The notes under the pieces were generated by a model. It saw nothing but the letters and a program-made list of their open reading frames with translations. It did no database searches and was not told the origin of the DNA. A program made the translations under genes and the position numbers. This document shows, piece after piece, positions 44,890-61,160 of a DNA stretch of 64,000 bases; position 1 is the first letter of the stretch, and each line of letters starts with the position of its first letter. This DNA comes from Alcanivorax sp. DG881 (GTDB lineage: Bacteria > Pseudomonadota > Gammaproteobacteria > Pseudomonadales > Alcanivoracaceae): assembly GCF_000155615.1 (NCBI RefSeq), contig NZ_DS989915.1, positions 1,296,002 through 1,360,001 on the forward strand. The letters are read 5' to 3'.

Positions 44890-46119
44890 TTATTTATCTT
44901 TGGACAGCGGCACATCTGTACTGCCGGCAACACTGTGCTGCGGACCATCCATCCCCGGCTTGATATCGAAGTCGAAGATATCCGTTGGCAGCCAGAGGGT
45001 GGCACAGGCATTGGGCACATCCACCACGCCACTGATATGCCCCTGTACCGGCGCGCAGCCGAGCAAGGCATAAGCCTGGGCCCCGGTGTAGCCGAATTTC
45101 TTCAGATACTCGATGGCGTTCAGGCAGGCCTGACGGTAAGCCACATGCACATCCAGATAGTGCTGCTTGCCTTCCTCGTCCACAGAGATCCCTTCGAAGA
45201 TCAAGTAGTCGTCATATTTCGGTGCAATGGGACTGGGCTTGAAGATTGGATTCTTGATTCCGTACTTCTCCATACCACCCTTGATGATGTTCACTCGCAA
45301 GTGAATCCAGCCGGCCATTTCAATGGCACCACAGAAGGTAATTTCACCGTCGCCCTGGCTGAAGTGCAGGTCCCCCACTGACAAGCCGGCATCTTTCACA
45401 TAAACCGGGAAGTACACCTGGGAACCCCGGGAGAGATCCTTGATGTCACAGTTACCGCCGTGCTCGCGGGGCGGCACGGTACGGGCGCCCTCTGCTGCCG
45501 CCTTGGCTTTTGCTTCGCCGGTCAGTTTGCCCATGTGGGCGGTCTCGGCATAGGGCAGGTTCGCCAGGCCCGGCACCCTATCGGGCTCGGTGTCATAGAG
45601 TTCTTTCTCTCGGGTGTTCCACTCATCCAGCATTTCCTTGGACGGCAGACACCCGATCAGCCCCGGGTGAATCAGTCCGGCAAATTCCACATTGGGAATA
45701 TGACGGGACTTGGTGAACATGCCGTTGAAATCCCAGATGGATTTCTGCGCTTCCGGAAAGTGCTCCGTCAGGAAGCCGCCGCCATTTTGTTTGGAGAAAA
45801 AACCATTGAAGCCCCACTGGCTTTCTTCAAAAGTACCGATATCGAGGATATCCACGACCAGCAGATCGCCCGGTTCAGCCCCTTCCACACCCACTGGGCC
45901 AGTCAGGAAGTGCACCTGAGTCAGATCCACATCACGCACGTCGTCAGCGCAGTCATTATTCTCGATCTGGCCGCCAGTCCAGTCATGACATTCGAGGATA
46001 AAGTCATCACCCGGCTTCACCATTTTTGCCATGGGAATATCCGGGTGCCAGCGGTTATGAATGTTCTCGTTTTCGTGGGGCGATTGGTTCAGGTCAATCT
46101 TGATAATGGTTTCAGCCAT
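44890..46119 (-). CDS. fmdA: Formamidase FmdA
   Basis: Hydrolyses formamide to formate and ammonia. The 409-residue protein matches the FmdA/AmdA acetamidase-formamidase family from the NQSPHENENIHNRWHPDIP start through LSVGDLHFSQGDGEITFCGAIE and ALLGCAPVQGHISGVVDVPNACATLWLP. A GGAGGAGAG ribosome binding site precedes the ATG. It has its own promoter that shares its operator with the urt promoter. Confidence 0.96.
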   Translation of the reverse strand: MAETIIKIDLNQSPHENENIHNRWHPDIPMAKMVKPGDDFILECHDWTGGQIENNDCADDVRDVDLTQVHFLTGPVGVEGAEPGDLLVVDILDIGTFEESQWGFNGFFSKQNGGGFLTEHFPEAQKSIWDFNGMFTKSRHIPNVEFAGLIHPGLIGCLPSKEMLDEWNTREKELYDTEPDRVPGLANLPYAETAHMGKLTGEAKAKAAAEGARTVPPREHGGNCDIKDLSRGSQVYFPVYVKDAGLSVGDLHFSQGDGEITFCGAIEMAGWIHLRVNIIKGGMEKYGIKNPIFKPSPIAPKYDDYLIFEGISVDEEGKQHYLDVHVAYRQACLNAIEYLKKFGYTGAQAYALLGCAPVQGHISGVVDVPNACATLWLPTDIFDFDIKPGMDGPQHSVAGSTDVPLSKDK

Positions 46120-46188: not shown

Positions 46189-46255
46189 ACTATCGGTAAT
46201 TCCCGAAACGCCCACCATTCGCCAATGCCCTGCAGCGTGTACGTCATTTGACGTA
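46189..46255 (-). promoter_or_regulatory. fmdAB promoter with 7-2-7 operator
   Basis: Read on the minus strand: TACGTCA-aa-TGACGTA (46240-46255), 18 nt, CGAATGG (46215-46221), 20 nt, GATAGT (46189-46194) as the -10. The same elements with identical spacing stand before urtA. The palindrome centre would be near -66, the position of a class I-type activator site. No good -35 is present, as expected of an activated promoter. Confidence 0.75.
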
Positions 46256-46412: not shown

Positions 46413-47456
46413 CTATACCGGAATCACGATCAGCGAACCGCTTTCCATCCGCGCTTCGAAGGTGTCTGCCCCGGGATAGTCCAACATCACCCGGGCCAGC
46501 GGTGGCGACAGTTCATTGCGAATGCGGCGGCCCATTTCCCGGGCACCGAAGCGGGCGTCCAGAGAACGACAAAGATGACGCCGGGCGCCCTCCCCCAGAC
46601 TCAGCACCACCTTGCGTTTCTGCAGCTGGTGGTTAAACCGGACCAGTTCGATATCCAGCAGCTGCACAGCTAGATCCTTGTCGAGAGGATTGAAGGTAAT
46701 GATGTCATCGATACGGTTGAGGAATTCAGGATCAAAGCGCTGATGCAGCGCCTGGTCCACCACATCATGGATCTGACGCCGCGCATTGCCCCAGCTCCAC
46801 CAACGCCGTTGTTGCTGGCGACTCAACATGGACACTTGTGACGCCCCCACGTTACTGGTCATGAAGATCATGCTGTTGCGAAAGTCGATTTCACGGTTAC
46901 CGGCACTGAGCCGCAAGCGCCCTCGCTCCAGCACATTAAGCAGCGTCCTGATTACTTCCGGACTGGCTTTCTCCAACTCGTCAAACAACACAATGCCGGG
47001 TTTGCTGAAACTGCCCTTTATGGCATCTTCATCAAACAGTGTCTGCCCTTCCTTGCTGCCCACATACCCCGGCGGCGCACCGGTGAGTGAGGCGGCATAG
47101 TGCTCCTGGGCCAGAGTGTTCATATCGATACGGCACACAGCATCAGGGCTGCCGTGTATGGCTTGCGCCAGCAGTCGCACGGTTTCGGTTTTGCCTACGC
47201 CAGTGGGCCCGACAAACAGCTGCACCGATAGCGGCCGGTCTTGCGCAACAATGTCGGCCTTGAGCACCTGCAGCAGATTCTCAAGGTTTGCCAGCACATG
47301 GGGCTGGCCGACAATGCGTTCACGCAGATGCGTCATCACCGTTGCCGGATCGAACACGAAACGACTCATGCGACCTACGCCATCAGGATTGACTGACCAG
47401 CGCTGCCGGTCCGCCTCATCCTGATTGGCCGCCAGTTGCTCATTGATAAATGGCAT
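46413..47456 (-). CDS. amiB: AmiB-like AAA+ ATPase (ClpB-type C-terminal core)
   Basis: A 347-residue single AAA+ module resembling the second ATPase domain of ClpA/ClpB: Walker A FVGPTGVGKTE, Walker B IVLFDELEKA, the GAPPGYVGSKEGQTLFD pore-loop region, FLNRIDDIITF and a C-terminal ARFGAREMGRRI sensor-2. Pseudomonas AmiB, encoded after amiE, has the same Clp-like character. It overlaps amiE by one base. No N-terminal substrate domain and no ClpP-binding loop are seen. Its client is unknown. Confidence 0.85.
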   Translation of the reverse strand: MPFINEQLAANQDEADRQRWSVNPDGVGRMSRFVFDPATVMTHLRERIVGQPHVLANLENLLQVLKADIVAQDRPLSVQLFVGPTGVGKTETVRLLAQAIHGSPDAVCRIDMNTLAQEHYAASLTGAPPGYVGSKEGQTLFDEDAIKGSFSKPGIVLFDELEKASPEVIRTLLNVLERGRLRLSAGNREIDFRNSMIFMTSNVGASQVSMLSRQQQRRWWSWGNARRQIHDVVDQALHQRFDPEFLNRIDDIITFNPLDKDLAVQLLDIELVRFNHQLQKRKVVLSLGEGARRHLCRSLDARFGAREMGRRIRNELSPPLARVMLDYPGADTFEARMESGSLIVIPV

Positions 47457-48502
47457 CAGCCACCCGCCGTTTTCTCTTTCCCGTCCACTGGCAATTCACC
47501 CACCGGACACTCGGCCACGCCCACCGTCTTGCGGGTCATGGCTTCCACATTCTCCTGTGCCTTCTGCGCATCCATAACCCAGGTGCGATAGAAATCAAAT
47601 GGGCAGTCTGCCACCCCTTTGTCACCATCCCCGGACGCATGCATGCCGGTGTAGCCACGATGCAGCAACTTGAAAAGATGATTCTGGGACTGGTCATTGG
47701 CACGGGCATCGCGAATCTGGCTGACCGACAGCTGGGCATACTGCACACCCATGTCTTCCTCGCCACATTCTCCCAGTGTGCGACCATCGAAACCGATAAT
47801 GGCGGAGTGGCCAAAGTAGGAATACACGCCGTCGAAACCGCTGGCGTTGGCCACCGCCACATAGCAGTTGTTGGCCCAGGCCATGGATTTGGCCATCATC
47901 ACCTGCTGCTCTTTTGCCGGGTACATGTAGCCCTGACAACGGACGATCAACTCGGCTCCCTTCATGGCGCAGTCACGCCAGATTTCCGGGTAGTTGCCAT
48001 CATCGCAGATGATCAGGCTGATCTTCATGCCCTTGGGACCTTCGGTGACATAGGTAGTGTCACCGGGGTACCAGCCCTCGATGGGGCACCAGGGAATACA
48101 CTTGCGGTATTTCTGGACGACGTCCCCTTCGTTATTAATCAACACCAGAGTGTTATAGGGCGCCTTGTTGGGGTGCTCTTCATGTCGCTCCCCGGTGAGG
48201 GAAAACACCCCCCAGGTGTTTGCCTCGCGGCAGGCCGCGGAAAAAATGGCCGTCTCGTCACCGGGCACGGTGGCCGCGGTGTCCATCATTTCATCATTGT
48301 CATACATGATGCCCATGGTGCTGTATTCGGGAAACACCACCAGATCCATGCCCGGTAGCCCCTGCTTTATGCCCTTGATCATGTCGGCAATCTTGCGGGC
48401 GTTATCCAGCACCTCGGCCTTGCTGTGCAGCCGCGGCATCTTGTAATTCACAACGGCTACACCAACGGTATCGTTGCTACTGGAAATATCCCCGTGTCGC
48501 AT
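47456..48502 (-). CDS. amiE: Aliphatic amidase AmiE
   Basis: Hydrolyses short-chain aliphatic amides to acid and ammonia. The 348-residue nitrilase-superfamily protein is very close to Pseudomonas AmiE ([20 protein letters not shown] start). The triad is Glu in [10 protein letters not shown], Lys in [12 protein letters not shown] and Cys in [18 protein letters not shown] 48502 follows GGAGAG; upstream MVKERV is not native to the family. It is the sixth gene of a seven-gene operon. Confidence 0.97.
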
Positions 48503-48546
48503 TACTCTCTCCTTTACCACTTAAAATTTATCGGCAACCAGCCCCA

Positions 48547-49236
48547 TCAAACCGCAAGATATGCCGCGATTTTTTCCTGATTCATGCTTTCACCGTTTTC
48601 TTCATGCACGATCTCGCCTTTCTCGATGACTAAAATTCGATCAGCCACATCCATGACAAAACTCAACACTTGCTCAGACACCACAATGGATAATCCTCGT
48701 TCATCGCGAATACGCTTCAACGTGCGAGCCATATCCTTGATGATGGAGGGTTGAATCCCTTCAGTGGGCTCATCCAGCAACAACACCCTGGGCCGCGTGG
48801 CCAGTGCACGGGCAATTGCCAACTGTTGCTGTTGACCACCGGATAAGTTTCCGCCACGACGGCTCTGCATTTCCTTCAGCACCGGAAACAATTCATAAAG
48901 ATCTTCCGGCACTTTATTTTCCCCAACCGCTGCCAGACCGGTTTCGATGTTTTCCTTAACAGTGAGCGTAGGAAAAATCATTCTTCCCTGCGGCACAAAA
49001 CCCAGGCCGGCCTTTACTCTCTGAAAACTTTTCATGCCCGTCAGGTCCTGACCAGCCAGTTCGGTCTTGCCGCCGCGCATTTTTTCCATCCCGATCAGGG
49101 ATTTCATCAACGTGGTCTTGCCCATGCCATTACGACCGACCACCGCAACAATTTCGTTTTCGGTGATATTCAGATTCATGTCACTGATGATAGTGCTCTG
49201 GCCGTAAGCCACCTGAAGATTTGATACGTTCAACAT
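48547..49236 (-). CDS. urtE: Urea/amide ABC transporter ATPase UrtE
   Basis: A 229-residue LivF-type ATPase: Walker A GRNGMGKTTL, signature NLSGGQQQQLAIARAL, Walker B VLLLDEPTEGIQPS. It pairs with UrtD. The transported compound in characterised Urt systems is urea; here the amidase and formamidase neighbours suggest short amides as well. Confidence 0.93.
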   Translation of the reverse strand: MLNVSNLQVAYGQSTIISDMNLNITENEIVAVVGRNGMGKTTLMKSLIGMEKMRGGKTELAGQDLTGMKSFQRVKAGLGFVPQGRMIFPTLTVKENIETGLAAVGENKVPEDLYELFPVLKEMQSRRGGNLSGGQQQQLAIARALATRPRVLLLDEPTEGIQPSIIKDMARTLKRIRDERGLSIVVSEQVLSFVMDVADRILVIEKGEIVHEENGESMNQEKIAAYLAV

Positions 49237-49257: not shown

Positions 49258-50007
49258 TCAGTGTCCCAGATAGACTTCGATGACTTTTGGATCCTGCTTG
49301 ACGTGATCAATGGATCCCTCGGACAACACCTGCCCCTGGTGCATGACTGTCACCCGGTCAGCAATATCGCCAACAAACTGCATGTCATGCTCGATCACCA
49401 ACACCGTGTGATTCTCGGTAATCACCCGCAGCAGTTCGGCGGTTTTCTTTCGCTCTGCCACGGACATGCCCGCCACCGGCTCATCCAGCATCAGCAAATC
49501 CGGCTTCTGGATCAGCAGCATGCCAATCTCCAGCCACTGTTTCTGACCGTGACTGAGCAACGCAGCTTCCTGATGCAGCATGTCGGAGAGGAAGATGGTT
49601 TTCGCTACCTCCTCCACCGCCTCTATCACTTCGGCATCACGCTTGAAGGCCAGCGCCCCGATCACCGAACGCCCGGCGGGATAGGACACTTCCAGGTTTT
49701 CGAACACGGTCAGATCTTCATAGATAGACGGGTTCTGGAACTTGCGCCCCACTCCTGAACGAACAATGTTGTGCTCGCTCATTCTTGTCAGTTCCTTGCC
49801 CCGAAACTTGATGGAGCCTTCGGTGGCCCTGGTCTTGCCACAAATAAGGTCCAACACCGTGGTCTTGCCGGCCCCGTTGGGGCCGATGATCACGCGGATT
49901 TCCTTTGGTTCCAGATAGAGGGACAGATCATTGACCGCCTTGAAACCATCGAAGGAAACGGTCAGGCCTTCCACGGCCAGAATGAAATCGTTATTGCTCG
50001 GGCTCAT
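49258..50007 (-). CDS. urtD: Urea/amide ABC transporter ATPase UrtD
   Basis: A 249-residue LivG-type ATPase with Walker A GPNGAGKTTVLDLICGKT, signature LLSHGQKQWLEIGMLL (SHGQ in place of SGGQ, as in other UrtD proteins) and LMLDEPVAGMS. Overlaps urtC by four bases. Confidence 0.93.
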   Translation of the reverse strand: MSPSNNDFILAVEGLTVSFDGFKAVNDLSLYLEPKEIRVIIGPNGAGKTTVLDLICGKTRATEGSIKFRGKELTRMSEHNIVRSGVGRKFQNPSIYEDLTVFENLEVSYPAGRSVIGALAFKRDAEVIEAVEEVAKTIFLSDMLHQEAALLSHGQKQWLEIGMLLIQKPDLLMLDEPVAGMSVAERKKTAELLRVITENHTVLVIEHDMQFVGDIADRVTVMHQGQVLSEGSIDHVKQDPKVIEVYLGH

Positions 50008-51146
50008 TTGGTTTCCTCCACAGGCAGGGTTGGCGCATTACCGCCATTACGACGCAGCAGCGCAGGCAGTTTGCTTTCCAGCGGCATCACATAACGGCGG
50101 TAGAGACCCGCCAGACCATCCGGGAAGGCCAGCACCACAGCGATAAACAGCACGCCGAGGCCATACAGCCACAGCTCCGGGAAGGACTCGGAGAAGAAGG
50201 TCTTCGCCGCATTCACGATCAGCGCACCGTAGATGGCACCCAGCAGGGAGTTACGGCCGCCGACCGCGCACAGGATCACCATCTCGATGGAAGGCACGAT
50301 GCCCACAAACGACGGCGACATGAAGCCCACCTGCAGGGTGAACATGGCACCACCGATACCGGCAAACATGGCCGCCAGACAGAACACAAAGATCTTGAAC
50401 GAGGCCACGTCGTAGCCGGAGAAACGCACTCGGTCTTCCTGGTCACGCATGGCCAGAAGAATGCGCCCCAGCTTACTGCGCATTACCCAGGCACCGATGA
50501 TCAGGCACAGGAACAACATGCCAACGCACACGAAGTAGAGCGCGGTTTTGGCTTCATCGGTGCGGATATCCCAACCCATCAGGGTGCGCAAGTCGGTGAT
50601 GCCGTTAACGCCCCCGGTAAAGCCCTGCTGACCGATGATCAGAATAGTCAGGATGGCAGCGATAGCCTGGGTAATGATGGCGAAGTACACGCCACCCACC
50701 CGGCGCTTGAACATGGCTACCGCGATGATTAGGGCCAACAAAGCCGGTACCGCCACCACGGCAATCAGGGTGAATGAAAAGCTGTGGAAGGGTTCCCAGA
50801 ACCACGGCAGCGCGGTGAGCTGGTTCCAGTCCATGAAGTCGGGAATCCCGGGGGTGGACTGAATGGCCGTGTTCTCCGGGCTGGAGGCTTCCAGCTTGAG
50901 GAACATGGCCATGCAGTAACCGCCCAGGCCGAAGAAGATTCCCTGCCCCAGGCTGAGGATGCCACTGCGGCCCCAGCACAATACCAGCCCCAGTGCCGCG
51001 AAGGCGTAGGTCAGGTATTTGCCGATCATGTTGAGGCGAAAGGCATCCAGCGCCAGCGGGAAAATGACAACCAGCAGAAATGCCAGCAACACGTAGTAGA
51101 TGCCCTCGCGGGACATCAACCAGTCAAAAAAACGATTCGCTTTCAT
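50004..51146 (-). CDS. urtC: Urea/amide ABC transporter permease UrtC
   Basis: A 380-residue LivM-type permease with about nine membrane helices. Signatures are GLGLVLCWGRSGILSLGQGIFFGLGGYCMAM-like segments near residue 50-80 (here LVLCWGRSGILSLGQ) and the RDQEDRVRFSGYD loop. UrtC-type features include the long insertion before the third helix. Confidence 0.93.
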   Translation of the reverse strand: MKANRFFDWLMSREGIYYVLLAFLLVVIFPLALDAFRLNMIGKYLTYAFAALGLVLCWGRSGILSLGQGIFFGLGGYCMAMFLKLEASSPENTAIQSTPGIPDFMDWNQLTALPWFWEPFHSFSFTLIAVVAVPALLALIIAVAMFKRRVGGVYFAIITQAIAAILTILIIGQQGFTGGVNGITDLRTLMGWDIRTDEAKTALYFVCVGMLFLCLIIGAWVMRSKLGRILLAMRDQEDRVRFSGYDVASFKIFVFCLAAMFAGIGGAMFTLQVGFMSPSFVGIVPSIEMVILCAVGGRNSLLGAIYGALIVNAAKTFFSESFPELWLYGLGVLFIAVVLAFPDGLAGLYRRYVMPLESKLPALLRRNGGNAPTLPVEETK

Positions 51147-51155
51147 GGCAGCCTC

Positions 51156-52082
51156 CTAGCGACGAACTTTCATGGCAAACAGACCTTGCGGGCGCAGCAT
51201 GAGAATGCCGACAACAACCAGCAGGGTAAGTACCTTGGCCATGGAACCACTCAGGAAGAACTCCATGGTGGACTGGGCCTGGGAAATGGTGAATGCGGAA
51301 GCAATAGTGCCGAGCAGACTTTGGGCGCCACCGAATACCACCACCAAGAAGGTATCGACAATGTACAACTGGCCGGAGGTCGGCCCGGTGGAACCGATCA
51401 TGGTAAAGGCGCTACCCGCCACACCGGCGATGCCACAACCCAGCGCGAAGGTCACCCGGTCAACACGACCGCTGTCGATACCCACCGCCTCTGCCATTGG
51501 CCGGTTCTGTACCACCGCGCGTACCTTGCGGCCCCAACCGGAGCGGTACATGAGCAGATAAACGGCAAAGGCAATCAGCAAGGCCAGCACCATCACGAAA
51601 ATCCCGTTGATTGGGATTTCCACAAGATCGGTGACGGCGATGGATCCCATCATCCAGTCCGGCAGGCTGACGCCCACCTCACGGGCACCGAAAACGGAGC
51701 GATAGGTTTGCTGCAGAATCAGGCTCAGCCCCCAGGTCGCCAGTAGCGTATCCAGTGGGCGGTGATAGAGATGTCGTATCATTAACCATTCCACCAATGC
51801 CCCAAGTGCAAAGGTGACGACAAAGGCCAGGAACATGGCCACGAAAAAATACCCCCCGTATAAACCGGGCATAAGACTTTCAAAAACCTGGGCCGTCAGA
51901 TACGTGGTGTAGGCACCAAGAATCATGAACTCACCATGGGCCATATTGATCACGCCCATTTGCCCAAAAATAATCGCCAGCCCCAACGCCATCAGCACAA
52001 AGATGGAAAACAGCGACAGGCCGGCAAACCCCTGCATGGCGAAGATAGAGGTCAACTCCGTCATGGTGTAGTCAGCGAACAT
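51156..52082 (-). CDS. urtB: Urea/amide ABC transporter permease UrtB
   Basis: A 308-residue LivH-type permease with about eight helices; GQMGVINMAHGEFMILGAY near residue 40 and VVFGGAQSLLGTIASAFTI near the end are diagnostic of UrtB. It starts after two hairpins that separate it from urtA. Confidence 0.93.
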   Translation of the reverse strand: MFADYTMTELTSIFAMQGFAGLSLFSIFVLMALGLAIIFGQMGVINMAHGEFMILGAYTTYLTAQVFESLMPGLYGGYFFVAMFLAFVVTFALGALVEWLMIRHLYHRPLDTLLATWGLSLILQQTYRSVFGAREVGVSLPDWMMGSIAVTDLVEIPINGIFVMVLALLIAFAVYLLMYRSGWGRKVRAVVQNRPMAEAVGIDSGRVDRVTFALGCGIAGVAGSAFTMIGSTGPTSGQLYIVDTFLVVVFGGAQSLLGTIASAFTISQAQSTMEFFLSGSMAKVLTLLVVVGILMLRPQGLFAMKVRR

Positions 52083-52238: not shown

Positions 52239-53507
52239 TTACTGGTAGCCTTTAGGGAACGGGTCCGGTTCCATCAGCTCTTCGGTTTCGTAGATCAGCT
52301 TGTACTGACCGTCAGCCTGAGCCTGGCCGATACGGGCCTTGGACCACAGGTGATGGTTCTCGTGGATGCGCACATACCCTTCAGGAGCAGTGGTCAGCTC
52401 GATACCGGGAGACGCAGCCTGGACTTTTTCGATATCGAAAGAGCCAGCTTTCTCTACCGCAGCTTTCCACAACCAGGGACCAAGGTAAGCGGCCTGGGTT
52501 ACGTCACCGATCACGATGTCGTCGCCCCAACGTTCCTTGAACGCTTTCACGAAAGCCTGGTTATTGTCGTTGCCAAGGCTCTGGAAGTACTTCATGGAGG
52601 CGTAGGCACCTTCCACGTTCTCGCCGCCAATACCCAGGATTTCATCCTCGGTCACGGAGATGGTCAGCAGCAGGGGCTTCTCTTGGGTCAGATCGATACC
52701 GGCCGCTTTCATTTGCTTGTAGAAGGCCACATTGGAACCGCCCACCACAGACGCGAAGATCACATCCGGCTTCTTCAGCTTGATCTTGTTGATCACGGAG
52801 TTGAACTGGGTGTGGCCCAGCGGGTAATACTCTTCACCCACCACTTTCAGGCCCAACTTGTCGATGTGCTTGCGGGCGATCTTGTTGGAGGTACGCGGCC
52901 AGATGTAATCAGAGCCGAGCAGGTAGAAGGTCTTGGCGCCCTTCTCTTCTGCCAGCCAGTCGATGCTCGCCAGAATCTGCTGGGTCGCTTCCTGACCGGT
53001 GTAGATCACATTGGGAGACTGCTCCAGACCCTCGTAGAAAGTCGGGTAGTAGAGCATGCCGTTGTGCTGCTCGAAGACCGGCAGCACCGCTTTACGGGAC
53101 GCTGAGGTCCAGCAGCCGAATACGGCAGCCACTTTATCTCTCACCAGCAGCTTGCGGGATTTTTCCGCGAAGGTCGGCCAGTCACTGGCCCCGTCTTCCT
53201 GGATGTATTCAATCTGACGACCGAGCACACCGCCGGCGGCATTGATTTGTTCAATGGCCAGCTTCTCGGCCTGCACAGAACCGGTCTCACTGATTGCCAT
53301 GGTGCCGGTGATGGAGTGAAGGATGCCCACCTTCACGGTGTCATCGGTCACTGCCAGCCCGGTGGTATTGGCCGCATCCGCCAGCGCAGTATTGGACAGG
53401 GCGAACAGCGCCGGCAGCGCCATCAAGCCCCCCAGCAAATGCCGGCGCGTCCAGGACGACCGGCGCGATGTTCGGTGCGTGGAAGGTTGGGTTTTGCTCA
53501 ATTTCAT
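52239..53507 (-). CDS. urtA: Urea/amide ABC transporter binding protein UrtA
   Basis: A 422-residue periplasmic type I binding protein. The N-terminus has a twin-arginine signal (TRRHLLGGLMALPALFAL, cleavage near ALA). TVKVGILHSITGTMAISE, AVFGCWTSASRKAVLPVFE and YTGQEATQQILASIDWL match UrtA. AmiC and FmdD are related binding proteins, but AmiC is cytoplasmic, so this one is the transport component. First gene of the operon. Confidence 0.95.
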   Translation of the reverse strand: MKLSKTQPSTHRTSRRSSWTRRHLLGGLMALPALFALSNTALADAANTTGLAVTDDTVKVGILHSITGTMAISETGSVQAEKLAIEQINAAGGVLGRQIEYIQEDGASDWPTFAEKSRKLLVRDKVAAVFGCWTSASRKAVLPVFEQHNGMLYYPTFYEGLEQSPNVIYTGQEATQQILASIDWLAEEKGAKTFYLLGSDYIWPRTSNKIARKHIDKLGLKVVGEEYYPLGHTQFNSVINKIKLKKPDVIFASVVGGSNVAFYKQMKAAGIDLTQEKPLLLTISVTEDEILGIGGENVEGAYASMKYFQSLGNDNNQAFVKAFKERWGDDIVIGDVTQAAYLGPWLWKAAVEKAGSFDIEKVQAASPGIELTTAPEGYVRIHENHHLWSKARIGQAQADGQYKLIYETEELMEPDPFPKGYQ

Positions 53508-53562: not shown

Positions 53563-53629
53563 AGTATGGAAATCTGCCTGCCCCCGGCCCATTCGGTGAT
53601 TGCGCCATCGCACTACGTCATTTGACGCA
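53563..53629 (-). promoter_or_regulatory. urtABCDE-amiEB promoter with 7-2-7 operator
   Basis: Read on the minus strand: TGCGTCA-aa-TGACGTA (53614-53629), 18 nt, CGAATGG (53589-53595), 20 nt, CATACT (53563-53568). This is the same architecture and spacing as the fmdAB promoter. The 278-bp gap to the divergent sensor kinase gene contains no other strong element that I can see, so the operator could also act on that gene. Confidence 0.75.
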
Positions 53630-53785: not shown

Positions 53786-56700
53786 ATGCCTATCGAGCAG
53801 CGCATCTTCCGCGTGCGACGCAGTTACAACCAGTGGGTTGCCAACCAGACCCTGGAGGACTTCTCCCTGCGTTTTACCGGCAAGGGGGCCCGCCGCTGGT
53901 CTGCCGGCCGGGTTGCCGGCACCGCGATTGGCGCCATTACGTTTCTGGCTCTGGAGGCCATCGGCGGCGCCATCACACTGAATTACGGCTTTTCCAATGC
54001 CGTGGCCGCCGTCTGCGCCGTCATGGGGCTTATCTTTTTGCTCAGCCTGCCGGTGAGTTATTACGCGGCCCGCTACGGGGTGGATATCGACCTGCTTACC
54101 CGGGGGGCGGGGTTCGGCTATTTGGGCTCCACCATTACCTCGCTGATATACGCCTCATTCACCTTTATTTTCTTCGCCCTGGAAGCGGCCATCATGGCCA
54201 TGGCGCTGGAAATCCTGTTTGGCATCCCACCCACTATCGGCTATCTACTCAGCTCCCTGGTCGCTATCCCGCTGGTGATTCACGGCATCACCACCCTCAC
54301 CCGCTTCCAGCTCTGGACCCAGCCCGTCTGGGTGTTCCTGCAGTTGCTGCCGTTTGTTTTCATCCTCCTGCAGGACCCCTCCACCCTGCCCCGCTGGGCG
54401 TCCTTTGAAGGCCTGGACAACGATGGCGGCGGCTTCAACCTGATCATGTTCGGCGCCGGCGCCACCGTGCTGTTTTCCCTGGTGGCGCAGATCGGCGAGC
54501 AAGTGGATTTCCTGCGCTTTATGCCGGAAGCCCAGAAGGGCAAACGGATTCGCTGGTGGCTGGCATTGCTCTGTGGCGGGCCCGGCTGGACCGTAATCGG
54601 TGCCCTGAAAGTACTGGCCGGCTCCTTCCTGGCTGTGCTGGCGTTTTATCACGGCCTGCCTCTGGAGCAGGCCCAGGAACCCATGCACATGTATCTGGTG
54701 GCCTTCAGTCACATCACCACCAACCCCACCATGCTGCTGGCGTTGGCAGGCATCTTTGTGATCCTCTCGCAGCTCAAGATCAACGTCACCAACGCCTATG
54801 CCGGCTCCATTGCCTGGTCCAACTTTTTTTCCCGTCTCACCCACAGCCATCCGGGACGAGTGGTGTGGCTGGTGTTCAATGTCGTGATCGCGCTGGTGCT
54901 GATGGAAATCGGTATCTACCGGGCGTTTGAATCCATTCTTGGCAGTTATGCCATGGTCGCTGTGGGCTGGATGGGTGCACTGGTGGCGGATCTGGTGGTC
55001 AACAAACCACTGGGCCTTAGCCCGAAACATATTGAGTTCAAAAGGGCCTACCTCTACGACCTCAACCCGGTTGGCTTCGGCTCCATGCTGATTGCCACCG
55101 GCATCGGCCTCAGCGCCATGACCGGCCTGTGGGGAGACACCGTCCATGCCCTGGCCTCCTTCATCGCCCTGGCCAGCACCTTCATCACCACGCCATTGCT
55201 GGCCCTGCTCACCCGTAGCCGCTACTACATCGCCCGTACTCCGGACTCCACCCGGGAACTGGAAGGGCACGCCTGCTGTATCTGCGAGCACACCTTCGAC
55301 CGCGAGGACATGGCTTTCTGCCCGGCCTACAACGGACCGATCTGTTCCCTGTGTTGTTCGCTGGATGCCCGCTGCAACGATAGCTGCAAGACCAACGCCC
55401 GCTTCTCCGAACAAATGATGGACTGGGTCGGCGGCTTTCTGCCTGCCGCCCTGATCAGCCAACTTCGCTCCCGGCTGGGACATTTCCTCGGGCTGCTGAT
55501 CACCATCACCCTGATCATGAGCGGGTTGCTGGCCCTGGTTTACTACCAGATCCCGGTAAGCGATGCCTTTGTTCAGACGCTGATGGCCGACACCCTGACC
55601 AAGGTATTTGCGATCCTGATCATCATCAGTGGCGTGATTGCCTGGCTGTTTGTACTGGCCCACGAAAGCCGGGTGGTGGCCCAGGAAGAAAGCCGCCGGC
55701 AAACCCGTATGCTGATGGAGGAGATCAAGGCCCACGAAAAAACCGACCTGGCACTGCAGGCAGCCAAGGAACTGGCGGAAGCCGCTAACCAGGCAAAAAG
55801 CCGCTACCTCACCGGGCTAAGCCACGAACTGCGCTCCCCCCTCAACGCGGCCTTCGGGTACGCCCAGCTGCTGGAACAAGACCCGAGCATCCCGGAGAAC
55901 CGGCGCGATGCCATTGGCGCCATCCGGCGCAGCACTGAGCACCTGTCGGATTTGATTGAGGGGTTACTGGAAATTTCCAAGATCGAAGCCGGCCGACTGG
56001 AGCTGTATCGCAACCAGGTATGCGTGCCTGAACTGATCGACGAGCTGGTTACCATGTTTCAGTTGCAGGCCGCAGAAAAAGGTATCGGCTTTGAATTTCG
56101 CAGTAAGAGCCAGATGCCCACCTGGGTGACCACCGATGAAAAACGGCTACGACAGATCCTGATCAACCTGCTTTCCAATGCCATCAAGTTCACCCGGGAA
56201 GGCCTGGTCACACTGACCTTTCGATACCGTAATCAGGTGGCTGAATTCGTTATCGCGGATACCGGCGTCGGCATTGATGAAGAAGACCTGAAACGCATCT
56301 TCCGGCCCTTCGAGCGGGTGCGAAAACCCGGCATACCCAGCGTCCATGGCACCGGCCTGGGGCTCACTATTACCCAGCTGTTAGCAGACATTATGGGCGG
56401 AGATATCCAGGTAAGCAGCGTGCCCGGCCAGGGTAGCGAATTTCGCCTGTCCGTCATGCTGTCCAGGCTTAGCAGCCCCGCCCCGGCCCGCCAGGAGCGC
56501 CAGCCCGTTGCCGGTTATGCCGGTGCGCGTAAAACCCTGCTGATTATCGACGATGACCCGTCACACCGCGGCCTCATCAGTGATCTTCTCACCCCATTGG
56601 GCTTCATCATCAATGAAGCCCAGGATGGGGAAACCGGCATGCAGCTGGCGCGGCACATTGCCCCGGACCTGGTACTACTGGACATTGCCATGCCCGGCCT

Positions 56701-57142
56701 CACCGGTTGGGAAACCGCCCAGCACATGCGCCGCCAGGGCTACCGCGGGCCGGTGGTTATGCTTTCCGCCAACGCCCGCGAAAACAACCCGGACATGGCC
56801 GATGGCCTGCATAACGACTACCTGACCAAACCACTGAAGCTTAATAGCCTGCTGGACAGCCTGGCCCGCCACCTGTCCCTCACCTGGCTACATCGACAGG
56901 ACGCACCACAAAGGCGCATCGACATAGTGCAGCAGACAAGCCCGGTGCAAACACTGGACCCTGCGCTGCGCGACGAACTTCTCGCCCTGGCCGAAATCGG
57001 CCACCTCACCGGCCTGCGCGACCGCATCGTGCAGGCCCGTGATGGCGGTCAACTGGATCATAAACTGGCTGAAAACATGCACTCACTACTCAAGGTATTC
57101 GATTTTCAGGCCGCAATCCGATTACTGGAGACCACCCCATGA
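53786..57142 (+). CDS. NCS1/APC permease-fused hybrid histidine kinase
   Basis: A 1118-residue sensor. Residues 1-475 form about twelve membrane helices that look like an APC/NCS1-type permease (NYGFSNAVAAV, YGVDIDLLTRGAGFGYLGS, FSLVAQIGEQVDF). Residues 497-534 hold ten or more cysteines (CCICEH, FCPAYNGPICSLCC, CNDSC), probably a metal site. Two further helices (about 560-640) and a coil lead to the kinase: His680 in SHELRSPLN, N-box INLLSNAIKF, DTGVGI and GTGLGL. A receiver (Asp966 in LLDIAMPG) ends the protein. Start ATG 53786 is chosen over weaker upstream codons. It overlaps the response-regulator gene by four bases. Confidence 0.85.
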   Translation: MPIEQRIFRVRRSYNQWVANQTLEDFSLRFTGKGARRWSAGRVAGTAIGAITFLALEAIGGAITLNYGFSNAVAAVCAVMGLIFLLSLPVSYYAARYGVDIDLLTRGAGFGYLGSTITSLIYASFTFIFFALEAAIMAMALEILFGIPPTIGYLLSSLVAIPLVIHGITTLTRFQLWTQPVWVFLQLLPFVFILLQDPSTLPRWASFEGLDNDGGGFNLIMFGAGATVLFSLVAQIGEQVDFLRFMPEAQKGKRIRWWLALLCGGPGWTVIGALKVLAGSFLAVLAFYHGLPLEQAQEPMHMYLVAFSHITTNPTMLLALAGIFVILSQLKINVTNAYAGSIAWSNFFSRLTHSHPGRVVWLVFNVVIALVLMEIGIYRAFESILGSYAMVAVGWMGALVADLVVNKPLGLSPKHIEFKRAYLYDLNPVGFGSMLIATGIGLSAMTGLWGDTVHALASFIALASTFITTPLLALLTRSRYYIARTPDSTRELEGHACCICEHTFDREDMAFCPAYNGPICSLCCSLDARCNDSCKTNARFSEQMMDWVGGFLPAALISQLRSRLGHFLGLLITITLIMSGLLALVYYQIPVSDAFVQTLMADTLTKVFAILIIISGVIAWLFVLAHESRVVAQEESRRQTRMLMEEIKAHEKTDLALQAAKELAEAANQAKSRYLTGLSHELRSPLNAAFGYAQLLEQDPSIPENRRDAIGAIRRSTEHLSDLIEGLLEISKIEAGRLELYRNQVCVPELIDELVTMFQLQAAEKGIGFEFRSKSQMPTWVTTDEKRLRQILINLLSNAIKFTREGLVTLTFRYRNQVAEFVIADTGVGIDEEDLKRIFRPFERVRKPGIPSVHGTGLGLTITQLLADIMGGDIQVSSVPGQGSEFRLSVMLSRLSSPAPARQERQPVAGYAGARKTLLIIDDDPSHRGLISDLLTPLGFIINEAQDGETGMQLARHIAPDLVLLDIAMPGLTGWETAQHMRRQGYRGPVVMLSANARENNPDMADGLHNDYLTKPLKLNSLLDSLARHLSLTWLHRQDAPQRRIDIVQQTSPVQTLDPALRDELLALAEIGHLTGLRDRIVQARDGGQLDHKLAENMHSLLKVFDFQAAIRLLETTP

Positions 57143-58044
57143 CAGCCGTACAACGTAAGGACCTGATACTGGTCGTGGACGATTCCCCGGATTCCCTCGG
57201 CATGATTCATCAAGCGCTGGACCAGGCCGGGCTCACCGCACTGATTGCCCTGGAAGGTCTGCAAGCGCTGAGTATTGCCGAAAAGATGACACCGGACCTG
57301 ATCCTGATGGATGCGATCATGCCCACCCTGGATGGTTTCGAGACCTGCCGTCGCCTGAAAAAACATCCCGGCCTGGCCTCGGTCCCGGTGATCTTCATGA
57401 CCGGGCTCACCGAAAGTGAGGACGTGGTGCGGGGGCTTGAAGCCGGTGGCGTGGACTACATTACCAAGCCGGTGCGGCCCAACGAGCTGATAGCCCGGAT
57501 TCGCGTACATCTGAACAATGCCCGCATGACCCAAAGCGCCCACACCACCCTGGACCGACTAGGCCAGACCAGCTTTTCCACCAACTCGGCCGGGCAGTGG
57601 CGCTGGGCAACCCCACAGGCCGACCTGTTACTGGAAAAGGCCAACGTGGACCGCCGCGCCCTGGCCGAGCCGATACAACGCTGGCTGAAGCATCAGCCCG
57701 AGCGAGGCCAGCAACTCAACCAACTCCCGGGCAATCTGGGGTTACGCTATCTGGGCCATTCGGCAAGTGGTGAAGAAAACGGCGAACACCTGTTCCGGCT
57801 GCTCCATCACGACAGCGATGCGGAGCTGGAACTACTGAAAAACGCACTACATGTGACGCACCGCGAGGCCCAGGTGCTGGTGTGGATTGCCCACGGTAAA
57901 ACCAACCGGGAAATTGCCCAGATTCTTGAGCTCAGCCCCCGCACCGTGAACAAACACCTGGAACAAATCTTCCGCAAACTGGGCGTGGAAAACCGCACCG
58001 CCGCGGCGGCCATGGTCATTCAATACCTTACCCAGATTCACTGA
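57139..58044 (+). CDS. NarL/FixJ-type response regulator
   Basis: A 301-residue regulator: receiver domain (Asp58 in LILMDAIMPT, Lys in ITKPVRPNE), a linker of about 100 residues, and a C-terminal LuxR-type HTH (about 238-301: THREAQVLVWIAHGKTNREIA, LSPRTVNKHLEQIF). It is translationally coupled to the transporter-kinase gene and is the best candidate to bind the 7-2-7 operators at urtA and fmdA. CrbS/CrbR (MxtR/ErdR) pairs have a comparable design with an SSS-type sensor. Confidence 0.92.
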   Translation: MTAVQRKDLILVVDDSPDSLGMIHQALDQAGLTALIALEGLQALSIAEKMTPDLILMDAIMPTLDGFETCRRLKKHPGLASVPVIFMTGLTESEDVVRGLEAGGVDYITKPVRPNELIARIRVHLNNARMTQSAHTTLDRLGQTSFSTNSAGQWRWATPQADLLLEKANVDRRALAEPIQRWLKHQPERGQQLNQLPGNLGLRYLGHSASGEENGEHLFRLLHHDSDAELELLKNALHVTHREAQVLVWIAHGKTNREIAQILELSPRTVNKHLEQIFRKLGVENRTAAAAMVIQYLTQIH

Positions 58045-60221: not shown

Positions 60222-61160
60222 TCATGAGGCAGGGGCCGGCTGATAGTCGGTGCCATTTTTCATAAGCGCGAAGGCGATACGAACCAGTTTGCGCGCCAGA
60301 ATGACCAGCGCTTGGGTGGTTGCCAGCCCACGGTCCAGATAAGCCTGATAGACCCCTGCCCAACGCTTGCTCCGGCGAGCGGCCATGGCCGCGCAGTAAA
60401 GCAGCCTACGAGTTTCTGAGTCGCCTTTCTTGGTCAGTTTTCGCTTGCCGGTCTTGGTGCCTGAGTCTTTCACGTGAACGTCCATTCCCAGGAAGGCCAC
60501 GAACGCATCACTGTTCCTGAAGTCGCCTCGCAGGAAGGCCATGACAAGGGCATAGGCTGTCAGATCGCCCACGCCCTCCAGGGCTTTGCAACGCTTCACC
60601 TGATCACAGAGCCCTGCCTCTCTGACCGCGTCGCGAAGGTGCTTCTGGATCTGTGCATCCAGCGTGTTGATCTGAGAGATCAGCCTCTTTAAGCCGGCTT
60701 TGAGTAGCGGCTCTGCACCCAGGCTTTGCTGGATAATGGTCCGCGCCTTGACCAGTGCAGCCCGGCGACGCAGCAGGATCTGCAGCGTCCGATACGCCTT
60801 GGGTGGCGGGCTCCAGCGGCGCAACGCCTCTTTTTCATGTTGCAGATGGCGGGCAAGTAGCTGTGCGTCAGAGGCGTCCGTTTTGGCACGACCACCTGTG
60901 CCCTTGCGGTAATGGTGGAGGCGAGAACCATCAATCACGTAGATGTGATGGCCTTTACGGTGGGCCAGCTCGATGGCATCCATGTGATAAGTGCCAGTGG
61001 CCTCGATGGCTATCTCACAGTGGGCAGGCAGACCCTTGAGCCAAGCCCGAATGGCTTGGGGTGTGTTCTCAATGGAATAGGTCTGGCCCAGGAAATAGAT
61101 GACCAACTCGGCCTTGGCCACGTCGATGCCGATAATGGAGGGTTCTACTTGCATTGCCAC
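60222..61160 (-). CDS. IS110 family transposase (DEDD recombinase)
   Basis: A 312-residue transposase. The RuvC-like DEDD residues are in GIDVAKAEL (Asp), IEATGTYH (Glu) and KTDASDAQLLA (two Asp); the C-terminal Tnp_20 domain holds LEGVGDLTAYALV and a conserved Ser-containing region (VKDSGTKTGKR). Full length with no frameshift, so the element may be active. Confidence 0.95.
   Translation of the reverse strand: MAMQVEPSIIGIDVAKAELVIYFLGQTYSIENTPQAIRAWLKGLPAHCEIAIEATGTYHMDAIELAHRKGHHIYVIDGSRLHHYRKGTGGRAKTDASDAQLLARHLQHEKEALRRWSPPPKAYRTLQILLRRRAALVKARTIIQQSLGAEPLLKAGLKRLISQINTLDAQIQKHLRDAVREAGLCDQVKRCKALEGVGDLTAYALVMAFLRGDFRNSDAFVAFLGMDVHVKDSGTKTGKRKLTKKGDSETRRLLYCAAMAARRSKRWAGVYQAYLDRGLATTQALVILARKLVRIAFALMKNGTDYQPAPAS

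Follow-up and report, generated by a model that had tools for sequence, protein, structure and literature searches.

What does a histidine kinase detect when its membrane part has the shape of a complete transporter, and which genes answer to it? The question is raised by a gene pair in a 64,000-nucleotide stretch of Alcanivorax sp. DG881 (assembly GCF_000155615.1, contig NZ_DS989915.1, positions 1,296,002 to 1,360,001 of the forward strand; hereafter the window, in whose coordinates features are given), where a hybrid sensor kinase and a NarL/LuxR-type response regulator lie divergent from genes for the uptake and hydrolysis of urea and amides. The pair is probably a transceptor-type two-component system with an NCS1-derived sensor domain, responding to urea and short-chain amides and driving its dedicated regulator, a reading built on what was directly observed: the order of the domains, the match in fold, a conserved gene linkage, invariant residues in the pocket and the cysteine cluster, and a repeat common to two promoters. 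A small amide (formamide, acetamide or urea) would bind the transporter-like pocket, and the resulting conformational change would be relayed to the kinase by a cytoplasmic Cys-rich module and the two final membrane helices. Phosphate may then reach the regulator either in one step or by way of the receiver and an HPt, and the phosphorylated regulator would bind TACGTCA-NN-TGACGYA sites, activating the urtABCDE-amiE operon and, separately, fmdA, perhaps also its own gene.

Architecture of the sensor kinase

The genes and domains of the pair are as follows.

53786..57142, + strand: hybrid sensor histidine kinase, 1118 aa (open reading frame from the ATG at 53786)
53891..55219, + strand: NCS1-fold membrane sensor domain, about residues 36-478
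55274..55387, + strand: Cys-rich module, residues 497-534, nine cysteines, without a Pfam family
55472..55660, + strand: two further predicted membrane helices, about residues 563-625 (DSSP on the model; hydrophobic sequence by eye)
55793..55993, + strand: HisKA, residues 670-736, H680 (Pfam)
56132..56458, + strand: HATPase_c, residues 783-891 (Pfam)
56540..56863, + strand: receiver (Response_reg), residues 919-1026, D966 (Pfam)
57139..58044, + strand: NarL/LuxR-type response regulator, 301 aa, D58, GerE at residues 240-293

The stop codon of the kinase and the start of the regulator are joined by an ATGA overlap, as had been predicted from the sequence before this analysis; an upstream TTG would extend the kinase to 1180 aa, and the alignment of relatives begins near the ATG. 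With HisKA, HATPase_c and receiver domains and the candidate phospho-sites H680 and D966, the protein is a hybrid histidine kinase, and its partner, with a Response_reg domain (residues 10-122, candidate phospho-site D58) and a GerE/LuxR helix-turn-helix at 240-293, is of NarL/FixJ type; no ANTAR domain was matched in the regulator by Pfam. Pfam and the structural model also bore out the predicted order of permease-like part, Cys cluster, kinase and receiver. Residues 1-640 of the kinase have no Pfam match above cut-off, and among the NCBIfam matches listed (25 of 153 families) the best stretch always begins at residue 599 or later.

The nature of the membrane part was addressed through structure and through relatives. 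Its predicted structure is that of an entire transporter (mean pLDDT 82.5, pTM 0.83), with CodB and Mhp1 as the best structural matches (Foldseek, VIA-align) and the CodB structure aligning to residues 23-478 of the kinase model; chains of the SSS family, a member of the same superfamily, matched at lower Z than NCS1 (SiaT 21.1, DUR3 22.5). By this structure match the window protein has the NCS1 version of the fold. The original prediction had named placement in the SSS-CrbS class by HMM search as one refutation, and had proposed structure prediction as a second check; the first outcome did not occur, and the second returned the complete fold with CodB and Mhp1 at the top. No SSS model was matched by the sensor domain in the Pfam search, SSS is absent from the 16 Pfam families matched at E ≤ 1 by 42 family members, and the SSS/CrbS placement was rejected. 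An NCS1-like rather than SSS identity is thus supported by the structure ranking together with two stand-alone relatives, without a kinase, that pass the NCS1 model PF02133 (curated cut-off 23.5 bits): P0003 at 31.9 bits and a 26%-identical protein of genome G386 (L241) at 36.5 bits. The Pfam search returned no PF02133 match for the window protein or for anything else in its genome, and none for P0004, a further stand-alone relative. A PDB sequence search with residues 1-505 found nothing at E ≤ 10, and one with a 42-row profile matched no transporter. Three weak class-search matches (L019-L021, E about 1e-4) were set aside, L021 resembling by eye a sodium:alanine symporter.

Within the predicted pocket, E133, Q235, E238, Q239, D241, R244, Q329, K331, N333, N336 and Y338 are invariant in all 84 kinase relatives, with the same letters in both stand-alone relatives of the tree. 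K331 and I332 align to Mhp1 Ser312 and Thr313, which we take to be sodium ligands (the Na2-site hydroxyls), with a MAFFT gap at this place in one row (L237). The hydroxyls of the Na2 site are accordingly replaced, K331 being present in 84/84 kinases and in both stand-alone tree relatives. In view of this replacement and of the precedent of CbrA, in which a lysine (K196) occupies the sodium site (PMC13022988), the sensor may be independent of sodium. In an alignment through other NCS1/CodB-like rows, E133 corresponds to Mhp1 Gln121 and F129 to Trp117, both described as ligand contacts (PMC4195764). Glu57 in the first helix is found in 83/84 kinases (one gap), while both stand-alone tree relatives have Asp at position 56 instead, a difference that would offer a direct test of the change from transporter to receptor.

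The same residues bear on whether the sensor detects some other NCS1-type ligand (a nucleobase, hydantoin or allantoin) whose breakdown yields urea or amides. Known NCS1 substrates and the fold match would favour such a ligand; the replacement of the Mhp1 ligand residues Q121 and W117 by E133 and F129 argues against it, as do the recurrent urea and amide genes in the neighbourhood (chosen reference genes only were counted), and it is considered very unlikely.

A cluster of ten or more cysteines, read as an insert in the permease, had also been predicted. The cluster is present and conserved, with nine cysteines (497, 498, 500, 512, 520, 523, 524, 530 and 534), eight of them (497, 500, 512, 520, 523, 524, 530 and 534) invariant in 84/84 kinase relatives; since it lies behind the transporter domain and ahead of another pair of hydrophobic helices (residues 563-588 and 594-625, approximately), which in the model run into the kinase coiled coil, it is not an insert. 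As sole query the module was found in 12/185 genomes, always in known sensor genes; all eight cysteines are kept in P0004, which has no kinase, and four in P0003. Zinc-finger matches of the region (RING-like, E 1.9 with the 42-row profile; best whole-sequence E 1.2e-4, no stretch passing alone) and tetraheme-cytochrome matches of P0003 (E 0.0014) were taken as Cys-pattern noise.

Invariance in every kinase and confinement to one gene family could also be expected if the module were the real sensor, of zinc, redox state or nitric oxide via a metal centre, with the NCS1-like domain as an anchor or relic and redox or metal status gating nitrogen scavenging. The transporter pocket, however, is conserved just as strictly (84/84), as a relic would not be; P0004, which has no kinase, keeps the module whole; and the genes that recur among the counted neighbours are those for amides and urea. 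Together these points make this explanation unlikely.

Neighbouring genes and the nature of the signal

The reading of the pair as a urea and amide receptor draws on its surroundings, which in the window comprise the following genes.

52239..53507, - strand: urtA-type binding protein of a urea/amide ABC transporter (TIGR03407, 565 bits)
51156..52082, - strand: urtB-type permease (named by position and by eye)
50004..51146, - strand: urtC-type permease (named by position and by eye)
49258..50007, - strand: urtD-type ATPase (named by position and by eye)
48547..49236, - strand: urtE-type ATPase (named by position and by eye)
47456..48520, - strand: amiE, aliphatic amidase (NF009802, 718 bits)
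46413..47456, - strand: AmiB-like single-ring AAA protein (ClpB D2-like), between amiE and fmdA (Pfam/NCBIfam)
44890..46119, - strand: fmdA, formamidase (NF045496, 788 bits)

The kinase is indeed divergent from this urt-ami operon, which runs through urtABCDE, amiE and the AAA gene, with fmdA beyond; the ClpB-D2-like AAA gene at 46413..47456, whose product is AmiB-like, is present in 32/80 of the loci described next. A genome scan found the nearest named relatives of the kinase in Alcanivorax and kept the best 80 of 346 relatives, to which locus counts out of 80 refer: in 77 the kinase gene diverges from urtA, the regulator is present in 78, fmdA in 72 and amiE in 52, while the three lacking urtA are two at contig ends (L071, L097) and one with amiE in its place (L098). 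The window's own genome has 35 HATPase places, of which only this kinase lies within 10 kb of a UrtA above cut-off, and on these two counts the linkage of kinase and urtA exceeds chance.

So tight a linkage would suit a kinase that monitors how active the UrtABCDE importer is, or recognises UrtA with its ligand bound, instead of binding the amide itself. Sensors beside fmdA or urease with no urt genes in the stretch (L133, L231, L232, L210, L220 and L234, a statement about those stretches) argue otherwise, and in L133 a stand-alone homologue of the sensor domain is the likely importer; dependence on UrtABCDE is regarded as quite unlikely.

The context was also followed in wider samples. The sensor was matched in 55/398 genomes of an even draw across the phylum (a few being fragments or distant relatives), in 21/369 genomes of the class (three by weak matches only, one by a fragment) and in 21/57 relatives. 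From 62 match rows in the phylum draw, 57 were counted as sensor kinases and 54 newly fetched; the count of 57 is completed by the window (fmdA), G386 (as L051, fmdA) and G107 (L141, urease), and a 94-aa fragment (G638), the partial L235 and L236, with no reference gene, stand outside the count. Among the 54 newly fetched loci, 52 are beside urea or amide genes, 36 of these near fmdA and 16 near urea-transport or urease genes, and the remaining two are cut contigs (L191, L233); urtA lies divergent from the sensor in 42 of the 54, and the regulator accompanies it in 52. Eleven of the 16 urea-context loci have a urease gene within the stretch, and five (L222-L224, L226, L228) have a urease-type UrtA with no urease gene in the stretch. 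Loci were assigned to the formamidase context by an fmdA match or a UrtA at least 60% identical, and to the urea context by ureC/G/D or a urease-type UrtA; nine named loci were labelled by hand, eight as formamidase and L098 as amidase. These neighbour counts cover chosen reference genes, so that other recurrent neighbours could be missed. In the class sample the context is seen in 11/19 stretches (L125-L143) and is absent from eight, the latter including L126, which is an additional copy some 9.5 kb away from one linked to fmdA, and L129, a 5.7-kb contig; five of the six genomes behind L127, L129, L130, L132, L135, L139 and L140 have urease elsewhere.

The sensor occurs in operons of two types. 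Five sampled genomes have two full sensors, four of them (G562, G627, G648, G780) pairing an fmdA context with that of urease or a urease-type transporter, and the fifth (G500) having both near fmdA; on an 88-row tree the context switches at least five times, counted over 73 rows with either label. The factor common to the fmdA and urease contexts is a small amide or urea molecule, and the division of paralogues between urea and formamide operons adds to the value of the system.

Kinase-less relatives occur in the same settings. In G263 (L133), a protein with 53% identity and no kinase diverges from the kinase pair, and behind it come fmdA and amiE, in the position that urtABCDE occupies in many other loci; in G279 (L142:8080-12825, - strand), a urease operon contains, between ureG and a nickel transporter, a stand-alone NCS1-like protein whose Cys module is partial. 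Both are likely to be transporters of the same ligands, that of L142 being a candidate new urea transporter. A branch with SH-aLRT 99 sets the 84 kinases apart from the remaining rows, the two stand-alone forms among them, in a quick tree without a mixture model from which L125_2, L143 and L235 were dropped as partial; the basal position that it gives to the stand-alone forms is tentative because of a long-branch warning (L142 with the outgroup). A more distant stand-alone NCS1 relative (L144:9045-13341; 26% identical, without the Cys module, with Arg at the place of K331) is followed by stretches of weak amidase-like and UrtA-like similarity.

Outputs also vary: the sensor is fused to a PAS-PAS-kinase-receiver protein in L140 and, in L232, beside fmdA, to a plain kinase whose gene overlaps that of a receiver-kinase protein. 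At L139:6849-10520 (- strand) in genome G137, an NCS1-like sensor with the Cys module is fused to PAS-GGDEF-EAL, a c-di-GMP output. A broader generalisation is offered tentatively, at somewhat below even confidence: a proteobacteria-wide transceptor class may exist in which an NCS1-derived urea/amide module, with a lysine replacing the coupling sodium and an eight-cysteine metal site linking transporter state to output, is reused with hybrid kinase, plain kinase and PAS-GGDEF-EAL, having its origin in stand-alone urea/amide transporters that likewise contain the Cys module.

An inverted repeat before urtA and fmdA

A putative operator was found at two places in the window.

53614..53629: 7-2-7 inverted repeat TACGTCATTTGACGCA, proposed regulator site in the urtA-kinase gap
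46240..46255: perfect 7-2-7 inverted repeat TACGTCATTTGACGTA, proposed regulator site about 120 bp upstream of the fmdA start

An operator of 7-2-7 inverted-repeat form is known for NarL. TACGTCA-NN-TGACGYA occurs exactly twice in the 3.8-Mb genome, in the urtA-kinase gap and before fmdA, and the same two places are the only ones within one mismatch of TACGTCANNTGACGCA. Across the window and 77 named loci, 48/78 urtA-kinase intergenic regions are within two mismatches of a perfect 7-2-7 palindrome, many alphaproteobacterial regions having diverged (for example TACGCAA-GA-TCGCGTA in Bradyrhizobium), and in loci with fmdA a copy within two mismatches precedes that gene in 38/72. The exact pattern is present in 15/21 relatives with the sensor and in 2/36 without (Fisher p 2.5e-7, overstated by kinship), its reversed form in none of the 57. 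Of 25 unique exact sites in these relatives (20 examined as loci, five placed by coordinates), 24 precede fmdA or the kinase; the lone site elsewhere (L285, in G419) is near an integrase-like gene and was taken as chance. A promoter and terminator scan before fmdA found nothing. The window's own genome also has a second UrtA-type cluster (L267:8163-13300, - strand), urease-type with a long UrtB and no urease gene seen in the stretch, which has no repeat within 3 mismatches. By eye, an IS110-family transposase gene lies near the window's cluster at 60222-61160 (- strand).

Several observations weigh against the proposed system. At two mismatches the own genome gives 12 strand matches to the repeat and 11 to a reversed control, for which reason only the closest matches are informative; 30/78 intergenic regions are at least three mismatches away, mostly in Bradyrhizobium, Afipia and Roseibium; amiE has no site of its own within two mismatches (0/52); and the sensor-negative genome G400 has a site before fmdA. 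In the wider sample a match within two mismatches precedes only 20/42 fmd-context and 7/19 urea-context promoters, five of the seven belonging to related urea clusters (L222-L224, L226, L228). Six of the 19 class-sample stretches (L127, L130, L132, L135, L139, L140) are without any reference gene, and in G137, which has two sensors, neither ureC nor urtA was matched. The window protein itself fails to match PF02133, and its ligand is deduced from neighbouring genes. The predicted signal of urea or an amide is nonetheless supported by context, through the 52/54 loci, the stand-alone relatives in fmdA-amiE and urease operons, and the inverted repeat before urtA and fmdA.

Comparison with known systems

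To our knowledge, the known regulators of urea and amide utilisation are intracellular or belong to general nitrogen control, and the present sensor seems to be a widespread, little-studied kind of nutrient sensor. It provides a concrete candidate membrane receptor for urea and amides, with a predicted operator and natural stand-alone counterparts, and would, if the reading is true, add a further fold to the SSS and Amt types among transporter-derived kinases. Among the papers listed by searches of open-licence literature there was no study of an NCS1-type histidine kinase, and an unseen report is possible.

In Pseudomonas aeruginosa, amide-responsive control of the amiE operon is exerted by the soluble AmiC and the ANTAR antiterminator AmiR; an amiE operon is common to both systems, whereas here a membrane kinase and a GerE-type regulator are present. 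That the pair takes the place of AmiC/AmiR, as first proposed, is plausible and goes no further than that, with amiE and the AmiB-like AAA gene in the cluster and the genome's one ANTAR-domain gene at least 1.5 Mb away. Mhp1 and CodB have the same fold as the sensor domain but lack a kinase, and differ in the sodium site and two ligand residues from the window protein, itself below the sequence model. The Amt fold is unrelated to NCS1. The Kuenenia stuttgartiensis ammonium-transporter histidine kinase likewise joins a nutrient transporter domain to a kinase, for a nitrogen signal (PMC5764959).

CbrA and CrbS, described as SLC5/SSS-STAC histidine kinases (PMC13022988, PMC5715377), similarly have a transporter fold fused to a kinase and paired with a regulator of matching genes, and K196 in the Na2 site of CbrA resembles K331 at the place of Mhp1 Ser312. 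Their SSS/SLC5 domain is followed by the STAC four-helix bundle, at whose place the model has the Cys module and two hydrophobic helices (no dedicated STAC model search was made), behind an NCS1-like domain; their ligands are reported as histidine or acetate, where urea or an amide is suggested here. As in the window, a formamidase accompanies a binding-protein transporter for amides and urea in fmdCABDEF of Methylophilus methylotrophus, which is induced by formamide and urea; a putative positive regulator is named, and the terms 'histidine kinase' and 'two-component' do not appear in the text of the review (PMC10781810). Apparently the same neighbourhood is described in a 2026 genome paper on Ectopseudomonas guguanensis G3 (PMC13296017), in which urtABCDE operon III lies near fmdA with a pair annotated as hybrid kinase and LuxR regulator, a likeness drawn from annotation.

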